A DNA stretch of 53,927 nt from an uncultured Eubacterium sp. (lineage in GTDB: Bacteria > Bacillota > Clostridia > Oscillospirales > Acutalibacteraceae): the NCBI GenBank assembly GCA_905233545.1, contig CAJOEV010000007.1, forward strand, positions 1 through 53,927, given 5' to 3'. Below are positions 7,428 to 36,854 of this stretch, piece after piece. Under the pieces are notes generated by a model. It worked only from the letters and a program-made list of their open reading frames with translations. It searched no databases and was not told the origin of the DNA. The first letter of the stretch is position 1; every line of letters begins with the position of its first letter. The translations under genes were made by a program, and so were the position numbers.

Positions 7428-7661
7428 TTAGTCTGATGTGTAAGGAAGAAGAGCAAGGTGACGAGCTCTTTTGATAGCTGTTGTGAGTTCTCTCTGATGC
7501 TTTGCGCAGGTTCCTGTAACTCTGCGGGGAAGGATCTTTGATCTCTCGGATACAAACTTTCTGAGCTTTGCAACATCCTTGTAATCTATAACTTCAACCT
7601 TGTCGGCACAGAACTGACAAACCTTTCTGCGGCCTTTTCTTGGTCCTTTTACATATGCCAT
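7428..7661 (-). CDS. rpsR: 30S ribosomal protein S18
   Basis: This 77-residue protein has the S18 core: KVCQFC near the N-terminus, [19 protein letters not shown], then [32 protein letters not shown]18 binds S6 and 16S rRNA in the platform of the small subunit. The CxxC plus CAKH residues indicate the zinc-binding version of S18; organisms often carry a second zinc-free copy expressed under zinc shortage. It is third in the conserved rpsF-ssb-rpsR order and is followed by a strong terminator. Confidence 0.97.
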
Positions 7662-7698
7662 GGAATATTTCCTCCTTGTTTATTGGTGAACTTCTGGG

Positions 7699-8142
7699 TT
7701 AGAACGGAAGGTCGTCTTCGCTTTCGCTGTCAACAATTTCCTCAAAATCGCTGTTGTCCGCATTTGAATAGCTCGGAGCAGCCTGAGTGAATTCACGGTT
7801 CTGGAAATCGGTTCCCGATTCAGCCTTTGAACCGCAGAATGAAACGTTGTTAGCAACAACCTCAACTTGTTTTCTCTTATTACCGTCTCTGTCGGTATAA
7901 TTGCTTGTCTGGATTGAACCTTCAACAGCAATCATTGATCCCTTGCGGAAATAACGTGAAATGAATTCCGCAGTCTGTCTCCATGCAACGCAGTCGATAA
8001 AATCAGCCTGGCGGTCTTCGCCCGATCTCTGATAATTTCTGTCGCATGCAACCTGGAAACGAATAACCGAAACTCCGCTCGGAGTTGATTTTAACTCGGG
8101 ATCGTAAGTTAATCTTCCCATTAATGCAACTGTATTAATCAT
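7699..8142 (-). CDS. ssb: Single-stranded DNA-binding protein
   Basis: This 147-residue protein has an OB fold at about 1-105 (MINTVALMGRLTYDPELK, FIDCVAWRQTAEFISRYFRKG). A disordered acidic linker follows, and the chain ends in the DDLPF tip that recruits repair and replication partners. It coats single-stranded DNA during replication and recombination. The position between rpsF and rpsR is the standard Firmicutes arrangement. Its stop and the rpsF stop/start context are only 2 bases apart, so it is co-transcribed from the rpsF promoter. Confidence 0.97.
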   Translation of the reverse strand: MINTVALMGRLTYDPELKSTPSGVSVIRFQVACDRNYQRSGEDRQADFIDCVAWRQTAEFISRYFRKGSMIAVEGSIQTSNYTDRDGNKRKQVEVVANNVSFCGSKAESGTDFQNREFTQAAPSYSNADNSDFEEIVDSESEDDLPF

Positions 8143-10138: not shown

Positions 10139-10853
10139 TATCAGCTTTCTTTTTCTTACCCGAACCGATTTTGTTTTCCTCGCCTTTTAAAAGGCGTTTT
10201 ATGTTGTCTTTGTGCTTATATAAAACGATAATTGAGAATAAAATTGATATTGCAAGGGCAATCAGTCTGAAAAGCATTTCCTTATCGCCGAAGGTGTTTT
10301 TAGGTGCGATTGAAGGCGGGAAAAATCTATATTCCCTGTCAAAAAGGAAAAACGTGCAAACGGGATAAACGATTGCAAAAAGGATTGATGAAAATGAAAT
10401 GTATTTTGTGATGAAAACAATTGCAAAAAACAGAATAAATCCCAAAACAAACATTCTCCAGTCAAGAATACATATCATAGCCGCGCAAACGGTTACGCCC
10501 TTGCCGCCCTTGAAACCGAAGAAGCAGGGATAGATGTGACCTATAAAACAGAAGAAGCCCGAAACAACCTTGAAGAAGTATTCGTACTTAAAGAATATCG
10601 TCGGTGCAACCCTGCTGAAAATGAGATAAACAACAAGGTATGCAATAATAACTTTTAGAAAATCGAGCACAAAAGCGAGAATTCCATACGCCTTGCCGTA
10701 GGTGCGCACCATATTTGTTGCGCCTGCATTTCCGCTTCCCGAATTTCTTATATCGCCCTTTTTAAGAACCTTGCTCATAATTATTGAAGAGTTTAAGCTT
10801 CCGAAAAGATATGAAAAAACTGCGCTTATTAAAAGCAAAATAACTGTTTTCAT
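10128..10853 (-). CDS. plsY: Acyl-phosphate:glycerol-3-phosphate acyltransferase PlsY
   Basis: This inner-membrane enzyme transfers an acyl group from acyl-phosphate to glycerol-3-phosphate, making lysophosphatidate for phospholipids. The 241-residue protein shows FGSLNSSII, the glycerol-phosphate site motif GSGNAGATNM and FKGGKGV, with about seven hydrophobic segments. The length is slightly above the usual 200 or so because of a Lys-rich C-terminal tail. The start has gagggtg upstream. It overlaps the ClC gene, so the two are one transcript. Confidence 0.93.
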   Translation of the reverse strand: MKTVILLLISAVFSYLFGSLNSSIIMSKVLKKGDIRNSGSGNAGATNMVRTYGKAYGILAFVLDFLKVIIAYLVVYLIFSRVAPTIFFKYEYFFKVVSGFFCFIGHIYPCFFGFKGGKGVTVCAAMICILDWRMFVLGFILFFAIVFITKYISFSSILFAIVYPVCTFFLFDREYRFFPPSIAPKNTFGDKEMLFRLIALAISILFSIIVLYKHKDNIKRLLKGEENKIGSGKKKKADNEQ

Positions 10854-11940: not shown

Positions 11941-14085
11941 TTATTTTGTTTTAACGGTTTTGTAAGCGCTCCAATCGGAATAATACTTTGTTCCGTTTAC
12001 AGTTTTGTATGTTCTTACTTCAACGAAGTATTTCTTATTTGCCTTAAGTCCTGAGACTTTTTTGCTTGTTGTTTTGCTTGATGAAACGGTTTTTGTATTA
12101 TATTTTTTGAAGTTTTTATCTGTTGAATATCTGATTTGATATCCGCTTGTCTGAACGCTTTGCTTGCTCCATTTAGCAGTGAAGCCTTTTTTGTTTGCAG
12201 TAAGCTTTGTGAGTTTTGTTCCCTTTGGATTAATCTTAAAGGTTTTTGTAACGCTTCCGCTGTAATTACCCTTGAAGGTGATTATTGCTTTTGCAGTTCC
12301 GACCTTTTTGTTGTTTGAATATTTAACTGTGTAGTTTGAAGCTGAAACGGTTTTGCCGTTGCTGTCTTTAACGGTAACCTTCGGCTTCTTTTCTGAATTC
12401 GAATAGGTGTATTTAGAGCTTGAAAGGCTGACTGTTTTTGGATAATAAATTGTTGTTTTAGATGTTTTTTCGCAAATAACACAGGTTTTGGTTATACTTC
12501 CGTTTTTCTTTGTTGTTGCCTTAACGGTTTTTGTTTTTATTATTTCCTCAGTGTGTTCAAAGCTTTGAGAGTTAACCTCATTTCTGAAGTATTCAAGGGA
12601 TAAAAGAGCATCCTTGGTTGCATATGCGTTCACTTCATCGGTGTAGCAGAAAACACCGGCTTTATTGCTTTCAAATCCTTCAACAAGGTTTTTATAATAT
12701 GTGAAAGCAGTTTCAATATCACCAACCGATGCAAATGCCATCATTGCAAGCGCGGTTGAATCCGCGTTAACATCGGGAGCCCACTGAGGGTCGCAGTACG
12801 CGCCGTTTTCTTTGGTATATGATTTTATAACAGCTTTTGCGTCTTCAACATATTCAGCATAGCTATCCTTATATTTTGCAATTGAGCTTAAGAAGTGAGC
12901 GGTGTTGTCACAGGAAAATCCCCAGTAGTTGAGTCCGCTGCCCTTAACATAGAAATCTGCAATATATTTATCACAGAGCGTTTTTGCAAAGTTATCACTT
13001 GCAGCTTCAATCGCAGCTCTGTAGTAATACGGATGATAGGAAGCAGTTAAATCAATGCTCTCAAAAGCATCTATAAGATTATACCCCTCAAAATCAGCAG
13101 GGTTAATGCCGAGAATGAAAAGAATCTGAATAACAGCGCCGTAAATTCCCATTTCGCTGTTAAATCCTGCAACAGCAGGAGTAACAAGCTTTCCGCCGTT
13201 TGAATCAAGATTTTCCTTAACGCTTGAAAGAAATGTTTCTTCATATATGCTTGTATCATAGCCCGATTTTAAATATGTTAAAAAGTCAACCGCGTTTTCC
13301 ACGCTGAAGGAATCAATGCCTCCCAAAAGGTATTCAGCACCGCCAAAGGTTTCTTTTTCAACATAATCATAAAGCTGAGTTGAAACATTAATTACACACC
13401 AGGGCGCAAAAATCGGAGCACCGCCGATATTGTTTTCCGTGCTGATTTTATATGTTCCGATTTTATCAAAAGAAAGGGCTATTTCGCCTTTTTCGTCGGT
13501 TGTTCCCTTAACTTCGCCGTTAACTGTTATGCTTGCATTAGCAACAGGAAGAATAACGGGAGCCCAGCTTTCGTCATAACCCTCTTTTTTAAGTGTTAAA
13601 GTAACCTCTTCAGAAGTAAAAGCGTTTTTCTGACGGGCTTCAAAGAAGGTGTATGCATCGCTCCAGCCGACAGCGTCCTGATAAAACATATATTCAACAT
13701 AGTCACCGTCTTTAACCGTGTCATTCAGTCCGCCTGCGTAGTTTGAGCTGACGCGATAAGATAAGGTTCCTGCATCCTTATCGAATGCAGTGAGAATCCA
13801 GCTGCCGTTTATTGTTAATAAATCGGTGCTTCCAAATATATTAAGGTGCGCAGCAATCGTTGCGTCAAGAACTGTGGGTTCATTTCCTTCATCGGTGTAG
13901 CCATATTTATCCGATAAATCTGCCGAAACCTCAATCACTGTGGGTTCCTTGATAAATCCACCGTCATAAACACTGAATTCAACGCTCGCGGATTTTGCTT
14001 CTTCATCTGCAAAAACAGCCGTGCCTGCCCCAAGGCTTGATACAGCAAGAACAATTGATAATAAAATTGATAATGTCTTTTTCAT
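11941..14085 (-). CDS. Secreted transcobalamin-like protein (DUF4430 + alpha/alpha toroid), cobalamin-riboswitch controlled
   Basis: The start is the ATG at 14085, preceded by ggagga. The 714-residue protein has a signal peptide (1-26, ending AVFA). A DUF4430-like beta domain follows (about 36-145; PTVLDATIAAHL, LLTINGSWIL, VKDGDYVEYMFY). Next come a small beta domain (about 180-240), a helical region (about 245-505) with NADSTALAMMAFAS typical of alpha6/alpha6 toroids, a CxxC pair (535-538), an Ig-like module and an FN3-like C-terminus. Mammalian intrinsic factor and transcobalamin consist of a toroid plus a DUF4430-like beta domain that together clamp cobalamin. Here the beta domain comes first, and a cobalamin riboswitch precedes the gene. 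I infer an extracellular cobalamin or cobinamide capture protein. There is no sorting motif, so its surface attachment is unclear. Confidence 0.65.
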   Translation of the reverse strand: MKKTLSILLSIVLAVSSLGAGTAVFADEEAKSASVEFSVYDGGFIKEPTVIEVSADLSDKYGYTDEGNEPTVLDATIAAHLNIFGSTDLLTINGSWILTAFDKDAGTLSYRVSSNYAGGLNDTVKDGDYVEYMFYQDAVGWSDAYTFFEARQKNAFTSEEVTLTLKKEGYDESWAPVILPVANASITVNGEVKGTTDEKGEIALSFDKIGTYKISTENNIGGAPIFAPWCVINVSTQLYDYVEKETFGGAEYLLGGIDSFSVENAVDFLTYLKSGYDTSIYEETFLSSVKENLDSNGGKLVTPAVAGFNSEMGIYGAVIQILFILGINPADFEGYNLIDAFESIDLTASYHPYYYRAAIEAASDNFAKTLCDKYIADFYVKGSGLNYWGFSCDNTAHFLSSIAKYKDSYAEYVEDAKAVIKSYTKENGAYCDPQWAPDVNADSTALAMMAFASVGDIETAFTYYKNLVEGFESNKAGVFCYTDEVNAYATKDALLSLEYFRNEVNSQSFEHTEEIIKTKTVKATTKKNGSITKTCVICEKTSKTTIYYPKTVSLSSSKYTYSNSEKKPKVTVKDSNGKTVSASNYTVKYSNNKKVGTAKAIITFKGNYSGSVTKTFKINPKGTKLTKLTANKKGFTAKWSKQSVQTSGYQIRYSTDKNFKKYNTKTVSSSKTTSKKVSGLKANKKYFVEVRTYKTVNGTKYYSDWSAYKTVKTK

Positions 14086-14098
14086 ATTTTCCTCCAAT

Positions 14099-14127
14099 AA
14101 AAAAACTCTTCCCGGCAGAGAAGAGTT
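14099..14127 (-). terminator. Riboswitch expression-platform terminator
   Basis: On the minus strand AACTCTTC pairs with GAAGAGTT (14127-14120 with 14111-14104), followed by a run of Ts just 14 bases before the start codon. A second smaller hairpin with a T run (ggcat/atgcc, 14142-14154) lies upstream. Both would stop transcription when cobalamin is bound. Confidence 0.75.
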
Positions 14128-14164
14128 GCATAGCGAAAAAAGGCATAAAATGCCGTTTTCAGCC

Positions 14165-14375
14165 GAATTCTTCCGTTGCCCAAGAATATACTGAACGGCA
14201 CTGGAGATTCGAATCTTCAATGCCTATGCAGCGCGTCTCCCGACTTATGATATAGAAGCTTTGCTTCATCGAATCTGCCTTCTCAAGAATTAATCTCAAT
14301 GGCATATCAGATTCTTTTCGTCAAATACGGTAATGGCGGTTGCTCGGGATTCTCACCCGATTCCGTTTGCTGCAA
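14165..14375 (-). ncRNA. Cobalamin riboswitch (AdoCbl-type element)
   Basis: Read on the minus strand, the region has the conserved blocks of cobalamin riboswitches in order. AACGGAATCGGGTGAGAATC and CCGAGCAACCGCCATTACCG come first (14341-14370), then TTTGACG, GAGAAGGCAGATTCGATG, and the B12-box equivalent AAGTCGGGAGACGCGC (14247-14232). A terminator hairpin follows directly before the downstream start. Block order and spacing fit the family; boundaries are approximate. It should switch the secreted protein off when cobalamin is plentiful. Confidence 0.85.
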
Positions 14376-14379
14376 TAAT

Positions 14380-14408
14380 AATATAACATTATACAGTTTA
14401 TTATTCAA
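14380..14408 (-). promoter_or_regulatory. Promoter of the cobalamin riboswitch transcript
   Basis: On the minus strand TTGAAT (14408-14403), 17 bases, TATATT (14385-14380), placing the transcript start at the 5' edge of the riboswitch. A TATAAT a few bases upstream is an alternative -10 without a good -35. Confidence 0.6.
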
Positions 14409-14418
14409 GATGTTATTA

Positions 14419-14447
14419 TTGAATTGTTGATGAAATAATGATATACT
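14419..14447 (+). promoter_or_regulatory. Promoter of DUF4250-radC-hypB
   Basis: TTGAAT (14419-14424), 17 bases, TATACT (14442-14447), ending 34 bases before the DUF4250 start. Confidence 0.65.
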
Positions 14448-14481
14448 AAATTAACAAAATTATTTATCAGTGAGAAAAAAT

Positions 14482-14658
14482 ATGAGTTTACCAAACGACC
14501 CGTTTATGCTTCTCAGCGTTATCAATATGAAACTCAGGGATTCCTATTCGTCTCTTGATGCGCTTTGCGATGATATGAACGAAAGCAGAGAAAAAATTGA
14601 AGAAACCCTTAATAATGCAGGCTTTGAATACGACAAAACAACAAATTCTTTCAGGTAA
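14482..14658 (+). CDS. DUF4250 family small protein
   Basis: This 58-residue protein begins MSLPNDPFMLLSVINMKLRD, continues SSLDALCDDM and ends AGFEYDKTTNSFR, the full pattern of DUF4250, a family of small Firmicutes proteins of unknown function. The helical layout (LDALCDDMNESREKIEETLNNAG) resembles a small helix-turn-helix-like fold. ATG 14482 is chosen over an upstream in-frame GTG because family members begin close to the NDPxMLLS motif; the ribosome binding site is weak. It lies 8 bases before radC, so the two are co-transcribed, but I infer no shared role. Confidence 0.75.
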   Translation: MSLPNDPFMLLSVINMKLRDSYSSLDALCDDMNESREKIEETLNNAGFEYDKTTNSFR

Positions 14659-14666
14659 GAGGAAAT

Positions 14667-15362
14667 ATGGCAGAAATAAGCAGAGAAAAACACAGGGAAA
14701 GAGTAAGACAGGCATATCTCAAAAACTCATTTGAATCAATGAGCGATTCAAATGTTTTGGAGCTGCTGCTTTTTTATGCAATTCCCCGAAAAGATGTTAA
14801 AGAAATTTCATATGCTCTGCTTAACCGTTTCGGCTCGCTTGAAGGAGTGTTTGACGCCGATATGAAGGAGCTTGTTAAGGTTGACGGCGTTGGAGAAAAT
14901 ACGGCAATTCTTATCAATCTTTTTAAGAATATAGATTCAAGGCTTGATAAAAACAAAAATCTTTCTGTAAAGAAAATTGATGATTCGAAAAAAGCGATGG
15001 AGTTTGCGAAAAACGAGCTTTCGAATTTAACAAAGGAAGAAATTCTGATAATAACGCTTGATAACAGTCTGAATGTTATCTCGGTTAACAATGTGTCCCA
15101 GGGCATTTCAAATTTTGCAAGCGTTGAGCCGTACAGAATTATGGAATGCATTTTTAAGGACAATGCATCAAACATTATTATTGCCCACAATCACCCGAAG
15201 GGCAGTGTTGACCCGTCGCATGAGGATATTGATTTCACTCTTGAAATTATTCAGCTTTGCCGAAAGGTTAAGGTGAATGTAAACGACCATATAATAGTTG
15301 GCGCCAACGAAACGCTTTCAATGGTGAGCGACCTCAGATATTCAATGTTTTTTGACCGTTAA
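14667..15362 (+). CDS. radC: RadC family JAMM-domain protein
   Basis: This 231-residue protein has an N-terminal helix-hairpin-helix segment (KVDGVGENTA, about 71-80). A C-terminal JAMM/MPN metalloprotease-like domain carries HNHPKGSVDPSHED, with His174, His176 and Asp187 as metal ligands. RadC was once linked to DNA repair, but its biochemical role remains unsettled; related proteins act in competence and on phage or plasmid DNA. The complete metal motif suggests an active protein. It sits between DUF4250 and hypB with short gaps (8 and 14 bases). Confidence 0.92.
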   Translation: MAEISREKHRERVRQAYLKNSFESMSDSNVLELLLFYAIPRKDVKEISYALLNRFGSLEGVFDADMKELVKVDGVGENTAILINLFKNIDSRLDKNKNLSVKKIDDSKKAMEFAKNELSNLTKEEILIITLDNSLNVISVNNVSQGISNFASVEPYRIMECIFKDNASNIIIAHNHPKGSVDPSHEDIDFTLEIIQLCRKVKVNVNDHIIVGANETLSMVSDLRYSMFFDR

Positions 15363-32762: not shown

Positions 32763-35700
32763 ATGAAAAAGACTGCATCATTGATATTGACTGTAATATT
32801 GGTTTTTTCAACATTTAACTTTGCCGTTTTCGCTGACGCAGCTACAACGGTTATAAGCAGAAGTACGGAGCTTTCTGCCGCTTTTAAAAACGGCGGTAAT
32901 TATGAACTCAGCGCATCTGCTTCAATTCCTTTTATGATATATAAAGAGGGAATCACCAAAAACCTGAGCATAAAAGGCAACGGCAAAGAGATGAAGTGCA
33001 GCGGCAACGGAAACGATTCGATGTTTTTTCAGAACGAGTATGCCGTTTCGTCCTTTACTGATGTTGTTATAACGGGCAACACAAAACCCGATGTCGGAAT
33101 CTGGCTCGGCTCGGGCAATATGAGTTTTACAGACTGTGCAATTAAGAATTTTAATATCACGACAAACCGTTATTCAGCTCTTGCAGCGGCTAATGGGACA
33201 AAGCTCACCCTTAAAAACACGGCATTTTCTAATAATAACTCATATGATTTGCAGATTAACGATTCCGCGACGGTTGATATTGCGGGCTCAACCTCGCTTT
33301 CAAAAGTAAGGGTTTCATCAAATTTCTGCAAAATCAATTTCAAAAGCGGTTTTTCGGATAGCTTTGAAATGAATTTTGACAATCCTGTTGCAAAGGAAAT
33401 AGGAACTGTTTCAAGCGACAGCGATATTTCGAATATAACCGTTGCAAACGATAATTTCAGCCTTGAAAACAGGGACGGAAAGCTGTATCTCAAAGCTGAT
33501 AAGGAACCTGAAATTCACTTTGATATGGCGCAGAGAGAAACGCTTTATAAGGGCTCGACGGGCTTCCTTTACGGCGCTGCTGAAATAAACGTTCCCTCAG
33601 TCGATTTGTTATACGGACTTAAGCCCGACACTATGGTTCAGAAGGCATATGCGGGCAAACAGCATCCGACGGGCGACGCAATAAGAACAAGCTCCGCGCT
33701 TCTTGAGGCGGGCGTAAAGGATATGCAGATATATCTTCAGGACCACTATCTTGAATGGCCGTACGACGCACCGTATAAGCAGGTTGAAAGAGAAGTTAAC
33801 GGCGAAATGAAAACAATCACCGTAGTTGATGTTGACAAATATCAGAAGGTCGTTGAAGAAATCCTTTACGGTATGATTTGCGATAAGGTAAATCAGGGCG
33901 ATGAAGGAGCATTTAAGGGCAGTGACGGAAACTATTATAAGCTTAACGGCAACGGAAAGCACTACAGTTATGTTCTTTTCAATGAGCCCAACGATATCTG
34001 GTTCAGCTGGAATGAAGGGCTCGGGGGAAAAGATTTCGAAGGCTTTAAAGAGGCGTGGAATCAGATATATAAGGCTGTTCATAAGATTGACCCCGATGCG
34101 CGATGCGTAGGTCCCAACTATTCGGGATTTGAAGAGGAAAACTATGATTCGTTCCTTGAATATTGCTATAATAACAATTGTCTGCCCGAAATTATTTCGT
34201 GGCACGAGCTTGGCGATATTTCGCTTACGGATTTCAAAAAGCACTACGACAAAATTCAGAATATTGTTGATAAATACTATACCGAAACCGAAAAACCCGA
34301 GCTGTTGGTTAACGAATATGCGCGCCACTATGATATCGGCTCAGTAGGCGGACTTGTAAAATGGCTTGCGATGTTCGAGGATAAGGATATGAGCGGCTGT
34401 ATGGCGTATTGGGCAATGGCAAACACGCTCAATGAAATGGCAGCCGACCAGAATTCCCCCGCTTCAACCTGGTGGGTATATCATTGGTATGCTCAGATGA
34501 CGGGCGAGCAGTGTCCGCTTGTTTCACCTGAATTTGACAAAACTAAATTTTACGGCGTAACCTCATACGACGAGAACAATAATATGGGATATGTTCTTTT
34601 CGGAGGAAATGAAAATGAAAACGGTACCGAAACCGTATATCTCGATAATATTAACTCAACCGATTTGACGAACAGCAATGATGCGATTGGTGTTAAAATC
34701 TACGGCGTTCCGTTTTCGGGACAGCTCGGCGCAAACTACAAGCCCGAGGTGATTTTTGAAGGCAATATCAAAGCCGAGGAAAACTCGCTAAAGATTAAGA
34801 TTAACAACACCGATGAAATGGAGGCGTATTTTGCAGTTCTGACAAAGCCCGAGGACGATGAAACAATCTCCGACGCTTCCGGTCTTGAATTCCCGTATTT
34901 CAGCTATGAAGCAGAAAATGCAGAGCTCCTCGGCGGAGCAACGGCACATTCAAAGGGCGTTTGGTGGGATTTTGCAACCTCGGGAAGAATGAATGTCGGA
35001 AATATCAATAATAACGGCGACGGTGTTTGTTTCACGGTTGATGTTTCCGAAAGCGGATACTATAACGCTTCAATTTTCTATTCTCTCCAGGCTCCGTATG
35101 TCAACCCGAAAACCCTTGTTCCGCAGGAAAGCGGACAGAACAGGGGAATCGGAAAATCCCTTCCGTACGGAATGGAACTCGACGGAAAAACACTTCCGAA
35201 TATCACACTTGAATCAACTGTAACCTGGGCATATAAAAGCCATTGCGACACAAGAATTTATCTCAGCGCAGGTCAGCACAAAATCACATATAAACATATA
35301 AACGGCGACCAGGGCAACAAGGGAAATCTTCAGCTTGTTGCAGCGCTTGACAAGCTCACATTAACCAGGGAAACGGGCTTTGAAAACGACTTTGAAATCT
35401 GCCTTGATGAGATGAGCAATTTCAAGGACGGGGACTCTTACAGAGTTACTGCCGTAGCTCCCGAGGCGGGCTATTACACAGTCAGCGCAGACGGCGAATT
35501 CACACTTAAAAAGCAGTGCATTGACTATGCAAAAGACGCAAAATCCTTCTCAAAATGCAGTGTTTACGACGTTCCCGTCGGCAAAACCGTTTATCTTGCA
35601 AAGGGCGCAAACACGCTTTTTGTTGACGGCAGTGCTTCAATTCTCAGCTTTGAATATGACAGCACGTTGACCTCGGAAAGCTCAAGTGTTATCAACAGCT

Positions 35701-36854
35701 GCGATATAACCACCCACGGCAACAGCCCGACGCTGAAAAAGAACAAATACGCAAACAGCGGATATGTTATTTCCGAGCTTGGAATCGGTCAGAATCCCGA
35801 TAAAAACGATAAGGCGCAGTATAACTATTCAACATTTACACTTAACGCTCCGAGCGAGGGAACATATAATTTTGCAATCCGCTATTCAAACGATGAGCCC
35901 GCTCCGATTATGCAGAAGGCGGACGGCTCAACATATATTCATCCCTATAATATCGACCTTGTTGAAAGATATGCTCAGATTATTGTTAATGGCGGTGAGC
36001 CCGAGACGGCTTATTTCAAAAACACTTTGAGCTGGGATACTTTCAAAACGCTTGATGTTCAGCTCGAGCTCAAAGAGGGCGAAAACGAGATTAAGATTTA
36101 TAACGATAATTCGTATCAGTTCAGCAATCTTGTCAATTCGACAGCTCCCGAAATTGACACAATAACCGTTTCAAAGCTCAGCGGAACAGGGGAAAAGGTT
36201 TCCTTCTACGCTCGAGGAGCAAGCACTAACCATGATTTCCAGGACGGATATCCCTTTGTAACCCCTGCAACAACAACTTCAAACGGCAGGATTGACTGTG
36301 AGCTTGTTTGCCTTGAATGCGGATACAGAAAACAAACAACAACCACTATTTACAAGGTTTCTTCCGTTTCACTTTCAAAAACTGCGTATGCCTATGACGG
36401 AAAAGAGAAGAAGCCGACTGTAACTGTTAAGGATTCAAAAGGCAGAACTATTGACAAGAGATTCTACAGCGTTAAGTATTCCGATAATAAGGCAATCGGA
36501 ACAGCAAAGGTTAAGCTGACTTTCAAAGACCATTATAAAGGAACAAAAACCGTTTCCTTTAAGATAAATCCGAAAAAGACTTCAATAAGCAAGGTAACGG
36601 CGCTTTCAAAGGGCTTCAGAATTAAATGGAGCAAACAATCTTATTCGGGATATCAGATTCAGTATGCAGCGAACAGCTCGTTCAAGAGCGCAAAAACCGT
36701 TAATGTTAAAGGAAACAAAACAACAAGCAAGAGCATATTGAAACTTAAAGCAAAGAAAAAATACTATGTAAGAATCAGAACATACAAAACCGTCGGCGGT
36801 AAAAATTATTATTCCGACTGGTCGGTGAAGAAAGCAGTAACAACCAAGAAATAA
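32763..36854 (+). CDS. Large secreted clan-GH-A-like glycoside hydrolase, multimodular
   Basis: This 1363-residue protein has a signal peptide (1-26, ending FADA), then a beta-helix-like N-terminal region (about 30-245). A catalytic (beta/alpha)8-like domain (about 255-620) contains FNEPND with putative acid/base Glu408 and LLVNEYA with putative nucleophile Glu518. The NEP motif and Glu pair are hallmarks of clan GH-A; the layout is nearest to GH39-like enzymes but I cannot fix the family. A CBM35/CBM6-like module (about 690-865, opening SYEAENAELLGG), another sugar-binding-like module (about 955-1120), a CxxC hairpin and an Ig-like/FN3-like C-terminus follow. The substrate is unknown, probably plant or mucin polysaccharide. 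The TPR gene starts at its stop codon. Confidence 0.72.
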   Translation: MKKTASLILTVILVFSTFNFAVFADAATTVISRSTELSAAFKNGGNYELSASASIPFMIYKEGITKNLSIKGNGKEMKCSGNGNDSMFFQNEYAVSSFTDVVITGNTKPDVGIWLGSGNMSFTDCAIKNFNITTNRYSALAAANGTKLTLKNTAFSNNNSYDLQINDSATVDIAGSTSLSKVRVSSNFCKINFKSGFSDSFEMNFDNPVAKEIGTVSSDSDISNITVANDNFSLENRDGKLYLKADKEPEIHFDMAQRETLYKGSTGFLYGAAEINVPSVDLLYGLKPDTMVQKAYAGKQHPTGDAIRTSSALLEAGVKDMQIYLQDHYLEWPYDAPYKQVEREVNGEMKTITVVDVDKYQKVVEEILYGMICDKVNQGDEGAFKGSDGNYYKLNGNGKHYSYVLFNEPNDIWFSWNEGLGGKDFEGFKEAWNQIYKAVHKIDPDARCVGPNYSGFEEENYDSFLEYCYNNNCLPEIISWHELGDISLTDFKKHYDKIQNIVDKYYTETEKPELLVNEYARHYDIGSVGGLVKWLAMFEDKDMSGCMAYWAMANTLNEMAADQNSPASTWWVYHWYAQMTGEQCPLVSPEFDKTKFYGVTSYDENNNMGYVLFGGNENENGTETVYLDNINSTDLTNSNDAIGVKIYGVPFSGQLGANYKPEVIFEGNIKAEENSLKIKINNTDEMEAYFAVLTKPEDDETISDASGLEFPYFSYEAENAELLGGATAHSKGVWWDFATSGRMNVGNINNNGDGVCFTVDVSESGYYNASIFYSLQAPYVNPKTLVPQESGQNRGIGKSLPYGMELDGKTLPNITLESTVTWAYKSHCDTRIYLSAGQHKITYKHINGDQGNKGNLQLVAALDKLTLTRETGFENDFEICLDEMSNFKDGDSYRVTAVAPEAGYYTVSADGEFTLKKQCIDYAKDAKSFSKCSVYDVPVGKTVYLAKGANTLFVDGSASILSFEYDSTLTSESSSVINSCDITTHGNSPTLKKNKYANSGYVISELGIGQNPDKNDKAQYNYSTFTLNAPSEGTYNFAIRYSNDEPAPIMQKADGSTYIHPYNIDLVERYAQIIVNGGEPETAYFKNTLSWDTFKTLDVQLELKEGENEIKIYNDNSYQFSNLVNSTAPEIDTITVSKLSGTGEKVSFYARGASTNHDFQDGYPFVTPATTTSNGRIDCELVCLECGYRKQTTTTIYKVSSVSLSKTAYAYDGKEKKPTVTVKDSKGRTIDKRFYSVKYSDNKAIGTAKVKLTFKDHYKGTKTVSFKINPKKTSISKVTALSKGFRIKWSKQSYSGYQIQYAANSSFKSAKTVNVKGNKTTSKSILKLKAKKKYYVRIRTYKTVGGKNYYSDWSVKKAVTTKK

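Follow-up and report, generated by a model that had tools for sequence, protein, structure and literature searches.

What does a cobalamin riboswitch control when the gene behind it encodes a secreted protein? To our knowledge, extracellular corrinoid capture by Gram-positive gut bacteria is poorly defined compared with that in Bacteroides. In this study, we examine a 53,927-nucleotide stretch of DNA (hereafter the window; contig CAJOEV010000007.1, positions 1 to 53,927) from an uncultured Eubacterium sp. of the Acutalibacteraceae, whose assembly (GCA_905233545.1) comprises 2,231,579 bases in 76 contigs at a completeness of 97.6%. On its minus strand, a cobalamin riboswitch precedes an open reading frame (ORF; 14085-11941) for a putatively secreted, transcobalamin-like protein of 714 residues, in which a predicted SLBB/DUF4430-like beta domain is combined with a predicted alpha/alpha toroid. 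Because a secreted domain pair of the kind found in B12 carriers stands behind a B12 riboswitch, this protein is likely to capture extracellular B12 under scarcity of the vitamin. Judging from sequence comparisons, we put at roughly 80% the probability that it is a cobalamin-repressed extracellular corrinoid-capture protein, probably feeding an importer of the energy-coupling factor (ECF) type.

The initial annotation of this locus had placed a cobalamin riboswitch and a terminator directly before the gene, and both are there. The RF00174 covariance model matches its aptamer over the full model (1-189) at 14213-14413 on the minus strand, with a score of 70.9 bits (E 1.5e-15) where the gathering level is 31.5, and this is the sole match at E <= 0.001 in the assembly, where RF00174 was the one cobalamin riboswitch family searched for genome-wide. 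Reading along the minus strand, the aptamer is followed by an intrinsic terminator hairpin of 10 pairs with a T run (14127-14104), then by a GGAGG site and, at 14085, by the ATG start codon, so that the terminator supplies the expression platform ahead of the gene. The terminator scan found three terminator-like sites on both strands of 14000-14670, compared with a mean of 0.3 in shuffled sequences; a second, weaker terminator-like hairpin of 5 pairs with a T run lies at 14142-14154 on the minus strand. The hairpin at 14127-14104 is present in the predicted fold, the energy of the stretch only modestly beating that of shuffles (z -1.65), and a terminator can also be recognized in the relative L032, described below.

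The protein itself, whose parts all lie on the minus strand, begins with a signal peptide-like N-terminus judged by eye (residues 1-26; 14008-14085). It continues with the SLBB/DUF4430-like beta domain (residues ~33-155; 13621-13989), delimited by alignment with relatives and by hhalign comparison with 19 DUF4430 domains, and with a CarboxypepD_reg-like beta-sandwich (residues ~158-232; 13390-13614) that stays below the Pfam cut-off; 15 of 16 family members match CarboxypepD_reg at E up to 10, the best at 7e-5 and the window protein at 0.061. The toroid occupies residues 233-511 (12553-13389). Behind it come a CxxC motif (residues 535-538; 12472-12483) kept in the relatives L032 and L003, an Ig/MBG-like stretch seen by eye (residues ~549-617; 12235-12441) and a fibronectin type III (FN3) domain (residues 621-696; 11998-12225), which is the sole domain on the protein over the Pfam cut-off (PF00041). 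None of the NCBIfam models matches the protein. The modular architecture that had been proposed at the outset, with a secretion signal, an N-terminal beta domain, a toroid and additional CxxC, Ig-like and FN3 modules, thus reappears in this dissection.

The C-terminal Ig-FN3 module probably holds the protein at the cell surface. It recurs in the window at 36309-36839 on the plus strand, with 55% identity over 179 residues, within a 1363-residue ORF (32763-36854) whose Ig-like part matches MBG_3 and which also matches CBM35, both below cut-off. Because of this recurrence the module is not specific to the function of a B12 protein, and its presence on another large protein of the window fits a general surface module.

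The two central domains were identified by comparing profiles. The DUF4430 profile consisted of 19 domains from operons of relatives, chosen by motif or by eye, and all 19 of its rows were Pfam-positive at E <= 0.01 (best 9.5e-24). Against these, the window-type beta domain gave an hhalign probability of 93.6% (E 2.1e-7, 83 columns), and the toroid gave 99.8% (E 1.5e-28, 259 columns) against the toroids of 11 DUF4430-fused proteins; a mismatched control gave 0.2%. These comparisons support the toroid assignment more strongly than the DUF4430 assignment. In the PDB, the toroid family matches solved toroids of the terpene/squalene-cyclase type (E 5.8e-5), as do the DUF4430-fused toroids (E 1.4e-12), and Pfam sees DUF4430 weakly (E 0.046) on one of the 16 window-type family members.

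It had been suggested to look for the same pairing of riboswitch and gene in related genomes, and the pairing does recur, in L032 and L003 among others. Among 300 genomes of the window's own family, 29 encode a relative at E <= 0.001, the window's own included. The sole relative in a scan of contigs from named genomes is L032, from an Oscillospiraceae metagenome-assembled genome, which is 79% identical in the best segment and has a cobalamin riboswitch ahead of the gene, as in the window; scans of viral contigs and of phage records found no relative of the 714-residue protein. Taking the 28 other family genomes and L032 together, 10 of 29 relative loci (L003, L004, L007, L011, L013, L014, L016, L029, L030 and L032) have a riboswitch of the cobalamin clan at gathering level, 5' of the gene and on the same strand, and seven more (L008, L015, L018, L019, L020, L022 and L023) have a sub-threshold one. 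Modules of the FN3, dockerin and choline-binding types are found among family members. At L029:1288-3330, two toroids and a dockerin are combined in one protein behind a cobalamin riboswitch, an arrangement that suggests B12-binding units on a cellulosome-like scaffold.

The association was also approached from the side of the riboswitch. In 80 genomes of the family, RF00174 matched 62 times, in 52 of the genomes, and four of these matches fell short of the gathering score. Co-directional genes were scored along as much as 9 kb of the sequence that follows each match, fewer than 1.5 kb being available for 6 of the 62. An SLBB/DUF4430 gene follows 25 of the 62 cobalamin riboswitches, a toroid gene 12 and either of the two 28; the count rises to 39 of 62 when EcfT and EcfS genes are included, many of the EcfS matches being weak ones to short S component-like proteins. 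Since the profiles of this screen were built from loci homologous to the window, we also give the count after dropping the five loci used in them, which is 23 of 57 with an SLBB/DUF4430 or toroid gene. Under the same procedure, thiamine pyrophosphate (TPP) riboswitches, represented by the first 40 of 79 matches with five stretches under 1.8 kb, yielded no such gene in 40 (Fisher p 8e-7).

In relatives, the neighbouring genes are indicative of B12 uptake. In four loci (L041, L042, L044 and L049) the operon runs from an SLBB protein through a toroid+DUF4430 protein, EcfT and a fused EcfA to an S component, and in one further locus (L056) a double toroid with a dockerin adjoins a DUF4430 lipoprotein and ECF genes. 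L041 carries two cobalamin riboswitches in one operon, at 7556-7707 before the SLBB gene and at 10312-10452 before EcfT. Such encoding of a surface protein together with ECF genes occurs in several relatives and is not seen in the window's genome, where the parts of the uptake chain are present but scattered and a cobalamin riboswitch was found only before the capture-protein gene. EcfT and fused EcfA of the relatives' operon family lie on contig 24, where Pfam calls the EcfT CbiQ, and leave-one-out profiles recover them at E 1e-73 (EcfT, from a profile of the other 14) and 3e-146 (EcfA); the S component of the same family lies on contig 19 (E 6e-66). The genome has one toroid of the family and one window-type beta domain, both within the gene at 14085-11941, and one DUF4430 match, a lipoprotein-like protein of 241 residues on contig 32 (PF14478, E 2.7e-18). 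The B12-binding domain PF02310 occurs in one protein of the genome, MetH-like, with metH as its best NCBIfam match (E 1.9e-115). Neither CbiC nor a FecCD (BtuC-type) permease was found in this genome.

Taken together, these parts would fit the following course of events. At low intracellular cobalamin, the terminator would remain unformed and the protein would be made; it would be exported by its signal peptide-like start, recognized by eye, and act outside the membrane, where the C-terminal Ig-FN3 module would keep it at the surface. In transcobalamin and intrinsic factor, B12 is held by domains of these two kinds; here the toroid may hold the corrinoid, closed either by the protein's own N-terminal beta-grasp domain or by a separate DUF4430 lipoprotein. 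The corrinoid would then pass to an ECF importer that the EcfS of contig 19 would form with the EcfT/EcfA of contig 24 and, once imported, could supply the MetH-like enzyme.

Since the genome encodes a separate DUF4430 lipoprotein-like protein, it is possible that the clamp obtains its beta half in trans. Relatives offer a sample for this question, namely the 31 distinct toroid proteins in the retrieved loci, a non-random set of which some were used for profiles. A DUF4430 domain of their own is carried by 13 of these and lacking in 18. For 10 of the 18 a separate DUF4430 gene lies within 2.5 kb, one of them divergent, and in three (the window's, G071 and G285) the window-type beta domain is fused instead. 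The remaining five have neither a fused beta domain nor a DUF4430 gene; they include G034, where the stretch from riboswitch to toroid consists partly of N and was counted as having no DUF4430 gene, and G088 and G231, which lie near contig ends. In two loci (L047 and L040) a DUF4430 lipoprotein-like protein adjoins a protein that has a toroid without DUF4430 and ends in a sortase-like tail, the tails being judged by eye; L056, with its double toroid and separate DUF4430 lipoprotein, is a further locus with a divided clamp. We therefore raise, as a tentative idea that we hold to be doubtful on balance, a split transcobalamin repressed through the riboswitch, in which a toroid protein at the surface or wall would be paired with a DUF4430 lipoprotein at the membrane: B12 would be caught at the surface, enclosed by the lipoprotein and passed on to an ECF S component dedicated to it.

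Two further types of protein accompany these loci. A small basic protein with a homing endonuclease-associated repeat, recognized by a motif of our own, is encoded immediately upstream of SLBB surface genes in six loci (L063:1001-1279, L051:7422-7697, L042:9136-9528, L067:385-708, L122 and L151); PF18780 is the repeat family in the two that were examined with Pfam, and it is possible that the protein is a regulator. Secreted beta-propeller (PQQ-like) proteins recur in riboswitch/ECF loci (L060:9503-10834, L105, L107, L118, L124, L125 and L158), with PQQ_2 in the one examined and the others assigned by eye. Near the capture-protein gene of the window, 1.3 kb beyond its start codon and on the opposite strand, lies a gene for the nickel-insertion GTPase HypB (TIGR00073; 15377-16045, plus strand). 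No other hyp gene was found among the ten neighbouring ORFs examined. A nickel locus, which the adjoining HypB gene had suggested, was set aside because nothing else supports it.

Several observations weigh against a capture protein feeding an ECF importer. Neither Pfam nor NCBIfam calls DUF4430 on the 714-residue protein, and a PDB search with the beta and toroid profiles gave no significant transcobalamin match, the best being 5no0 at E 0.62. AlphaFold models based on two sequences, the window's and that of L032, were unusable, with a predicted local distance difference test (pLDDT) of 39.6 in the core model and 34.5 in that of the beta domain, and the fold assignment rests on profile comparison for this reason; the toroid part of the low-confidence model (pLDDT 39.6) contains 12 helices. 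Foldseek matches of the core model (14-3-3, TPR and designed proteins) were discarded, since none reached E <= 0.001 and such a model is meaningless for a fold search. Among the relatives, 12 of 29 loci have no riboswitch in the stretch of sequence examined, some of these stretches ending at contig edges, and two of the seven sub-threshold riboswitches are weak (L015, E 0.055; L019, E 0.075). In the reverse screen, 23 of 62 cobalamin riboswitches have no SLBB, toroid, EcfT or EcfS gene downstream; in three of these 23 (L142, L150 and L154) the first gene encodes a small lipoprotein that resembles DUF4430 by eye and went undetected by the profile. In the window's genome, the ECF genes and the DUF4430 lipoprotein gene are on other contigs, unlinked to the capture-protein gene, and a search around the DUF4430 lipoprotein, EcfT/EcfA and EcfS genes found no cobalamin riboswitch. 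The best named matches of the S component are riboflavin and folate S components, so that a corrinoid is no more than its putative substrate. The MetH-like protein scores 386.8 bits over partial sequence, against the NCBIfam metH cut-off of 1010.85, and the EcfT of L041, without a Pfam match at E 0.001, is named by its kinship to the contig-24 protein.

The riboflavin and folate matches of the S component speak for the alternative that survives best, namely that the protein binds another ligand (cobinamide, another tetrapyrrole, or a cobalt or nickel chelate) and that its cobalamin control reflects an economy of cobalt or of alternative cofactors. The neighbouring HypB gene would suit that alternative, as would the caveat of a reviewer, in the available text of Burroughs et al. 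(2007; PMC1796856), that ligands may vary across the SLBB superfamily. However, a toroid with DUF4430 is the domain pair of B12 carriers, the genome encodes a MetH-like protein with a B12-binding domain and neither CbiC nor FecCD was found in it, and in relatives the toroid and DUF4430 proteins share operons with ECF genes, in several cases behind cobalamin riboswitches; we consider another ligand improbable. Much less likely still is that the toroid belongs to a relative of enzymes, terpene cyclase-like, or to an adhesin, with the SLBB-like domain in a structural role. The PDB and Pfam matches of the toroid family are indeed squalene-hopene and terpene cyclases, and the FN3, dockerin and choline-binding modules of family members would be at home on an adhesin, but secretion does not suit terpene cyclases, and the family is associated with cobalamin riboswitches and with DUF4430 genes. 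That the riboswitch serves a different transcript, the secreted gene being a mere neighbour, as the 23 of 62 riboswitches without such genes in sister genomes might suggest, is hardly credible given a terminator directly before the GGAGG site and ATG of the gene and the recurrence of the pair in L032 and L003.

Corrinoid capture, then, remains the reading that we prefer, and it can be set beside known systems. BtuG lipoproteins of Bacteroides are linked to TonB transport and have a fold of another kind. They resemble the window protein in capturing B12 at the surface of gut bacteria, according to the available text of PMC6143338, and differ in being Gram-negative. Transcobalamin, intrinsic factor and haptocorrin, like the window protein, combine a toroid and a DUF4430-type domain in one secreted protein; PMC1796856, as available, describes the animal B12 carriers as a toroid with a beta-grasp domain of the DUF4430 type. 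In contrast to these carriers, the window protein is bacterial and riboswitch-controlled, has the beta domain first, and adds a beta-sandwich, a CxxC motif, and Ig-like and FN3 modules, and the profiles of its family have no significant sequence match to the solved animal carriers. ECF-CbrT shares ECF-type cobalamin import with the proposed system, the available part of its description mentioning no extracellular capture protein (PMC5997447). In Clostridium difficile, the genes behind the three cobalamin riboswitches are, according to the accessible text of PMC11477304, those of a cobalt ECF transporter and of an ABC system together with cob/cbi genes, a repertoire that differs from that of the window's family.

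The closest precedent is the work of Burroughs et al. (2007; PMC1796856), whose available portions predict that bacterial SLBB-toroid fusions, in both orders, are B12 scavengers. The proteins described there are secreted, as the window protein appears to be, have the toroid N- or C-terminal to SLBB, are fused to Ig domains and are encoded in operons with CbiO/CbiQ-like genes, a linkage comparable to the ECF linkage in the window protein's relatives. The concept is therefore not new. The capture function put forward in the initial annotation gains partial support from the cobalamin control, the domain pair, the secretion signal seen by eye and the context in relatives, and its novelty does not stand. 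Compared with the earlier SLBB proteins, the window beta domain is divergent and is followed by a beta-sandwich of its own, and the same portions of PMC1796856 mention neither riboswitches nor toroid and beta halves on neighbouring genes. In the open-access literature, as far as its accessible text goes and with subscription papers and preprints outside the scope, we found nothing that links cobalamin riboswitches to DUF4430 or toroid proteins, nor any description of a split, two-protein clamp.

The placement of 28 of 62 riboswitches before SLBB or toroid genes connects the domain-based prediction of 2007 with regulation, and a single purified protein and a single reporter would now suffice to test it. 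As the available text of PMC1796856 also proposes that the SLBB-toroid fusion was transferred from bacteria to animals, the finding bears on the proposal that animal B12 carriers were acquired from such bacteria.

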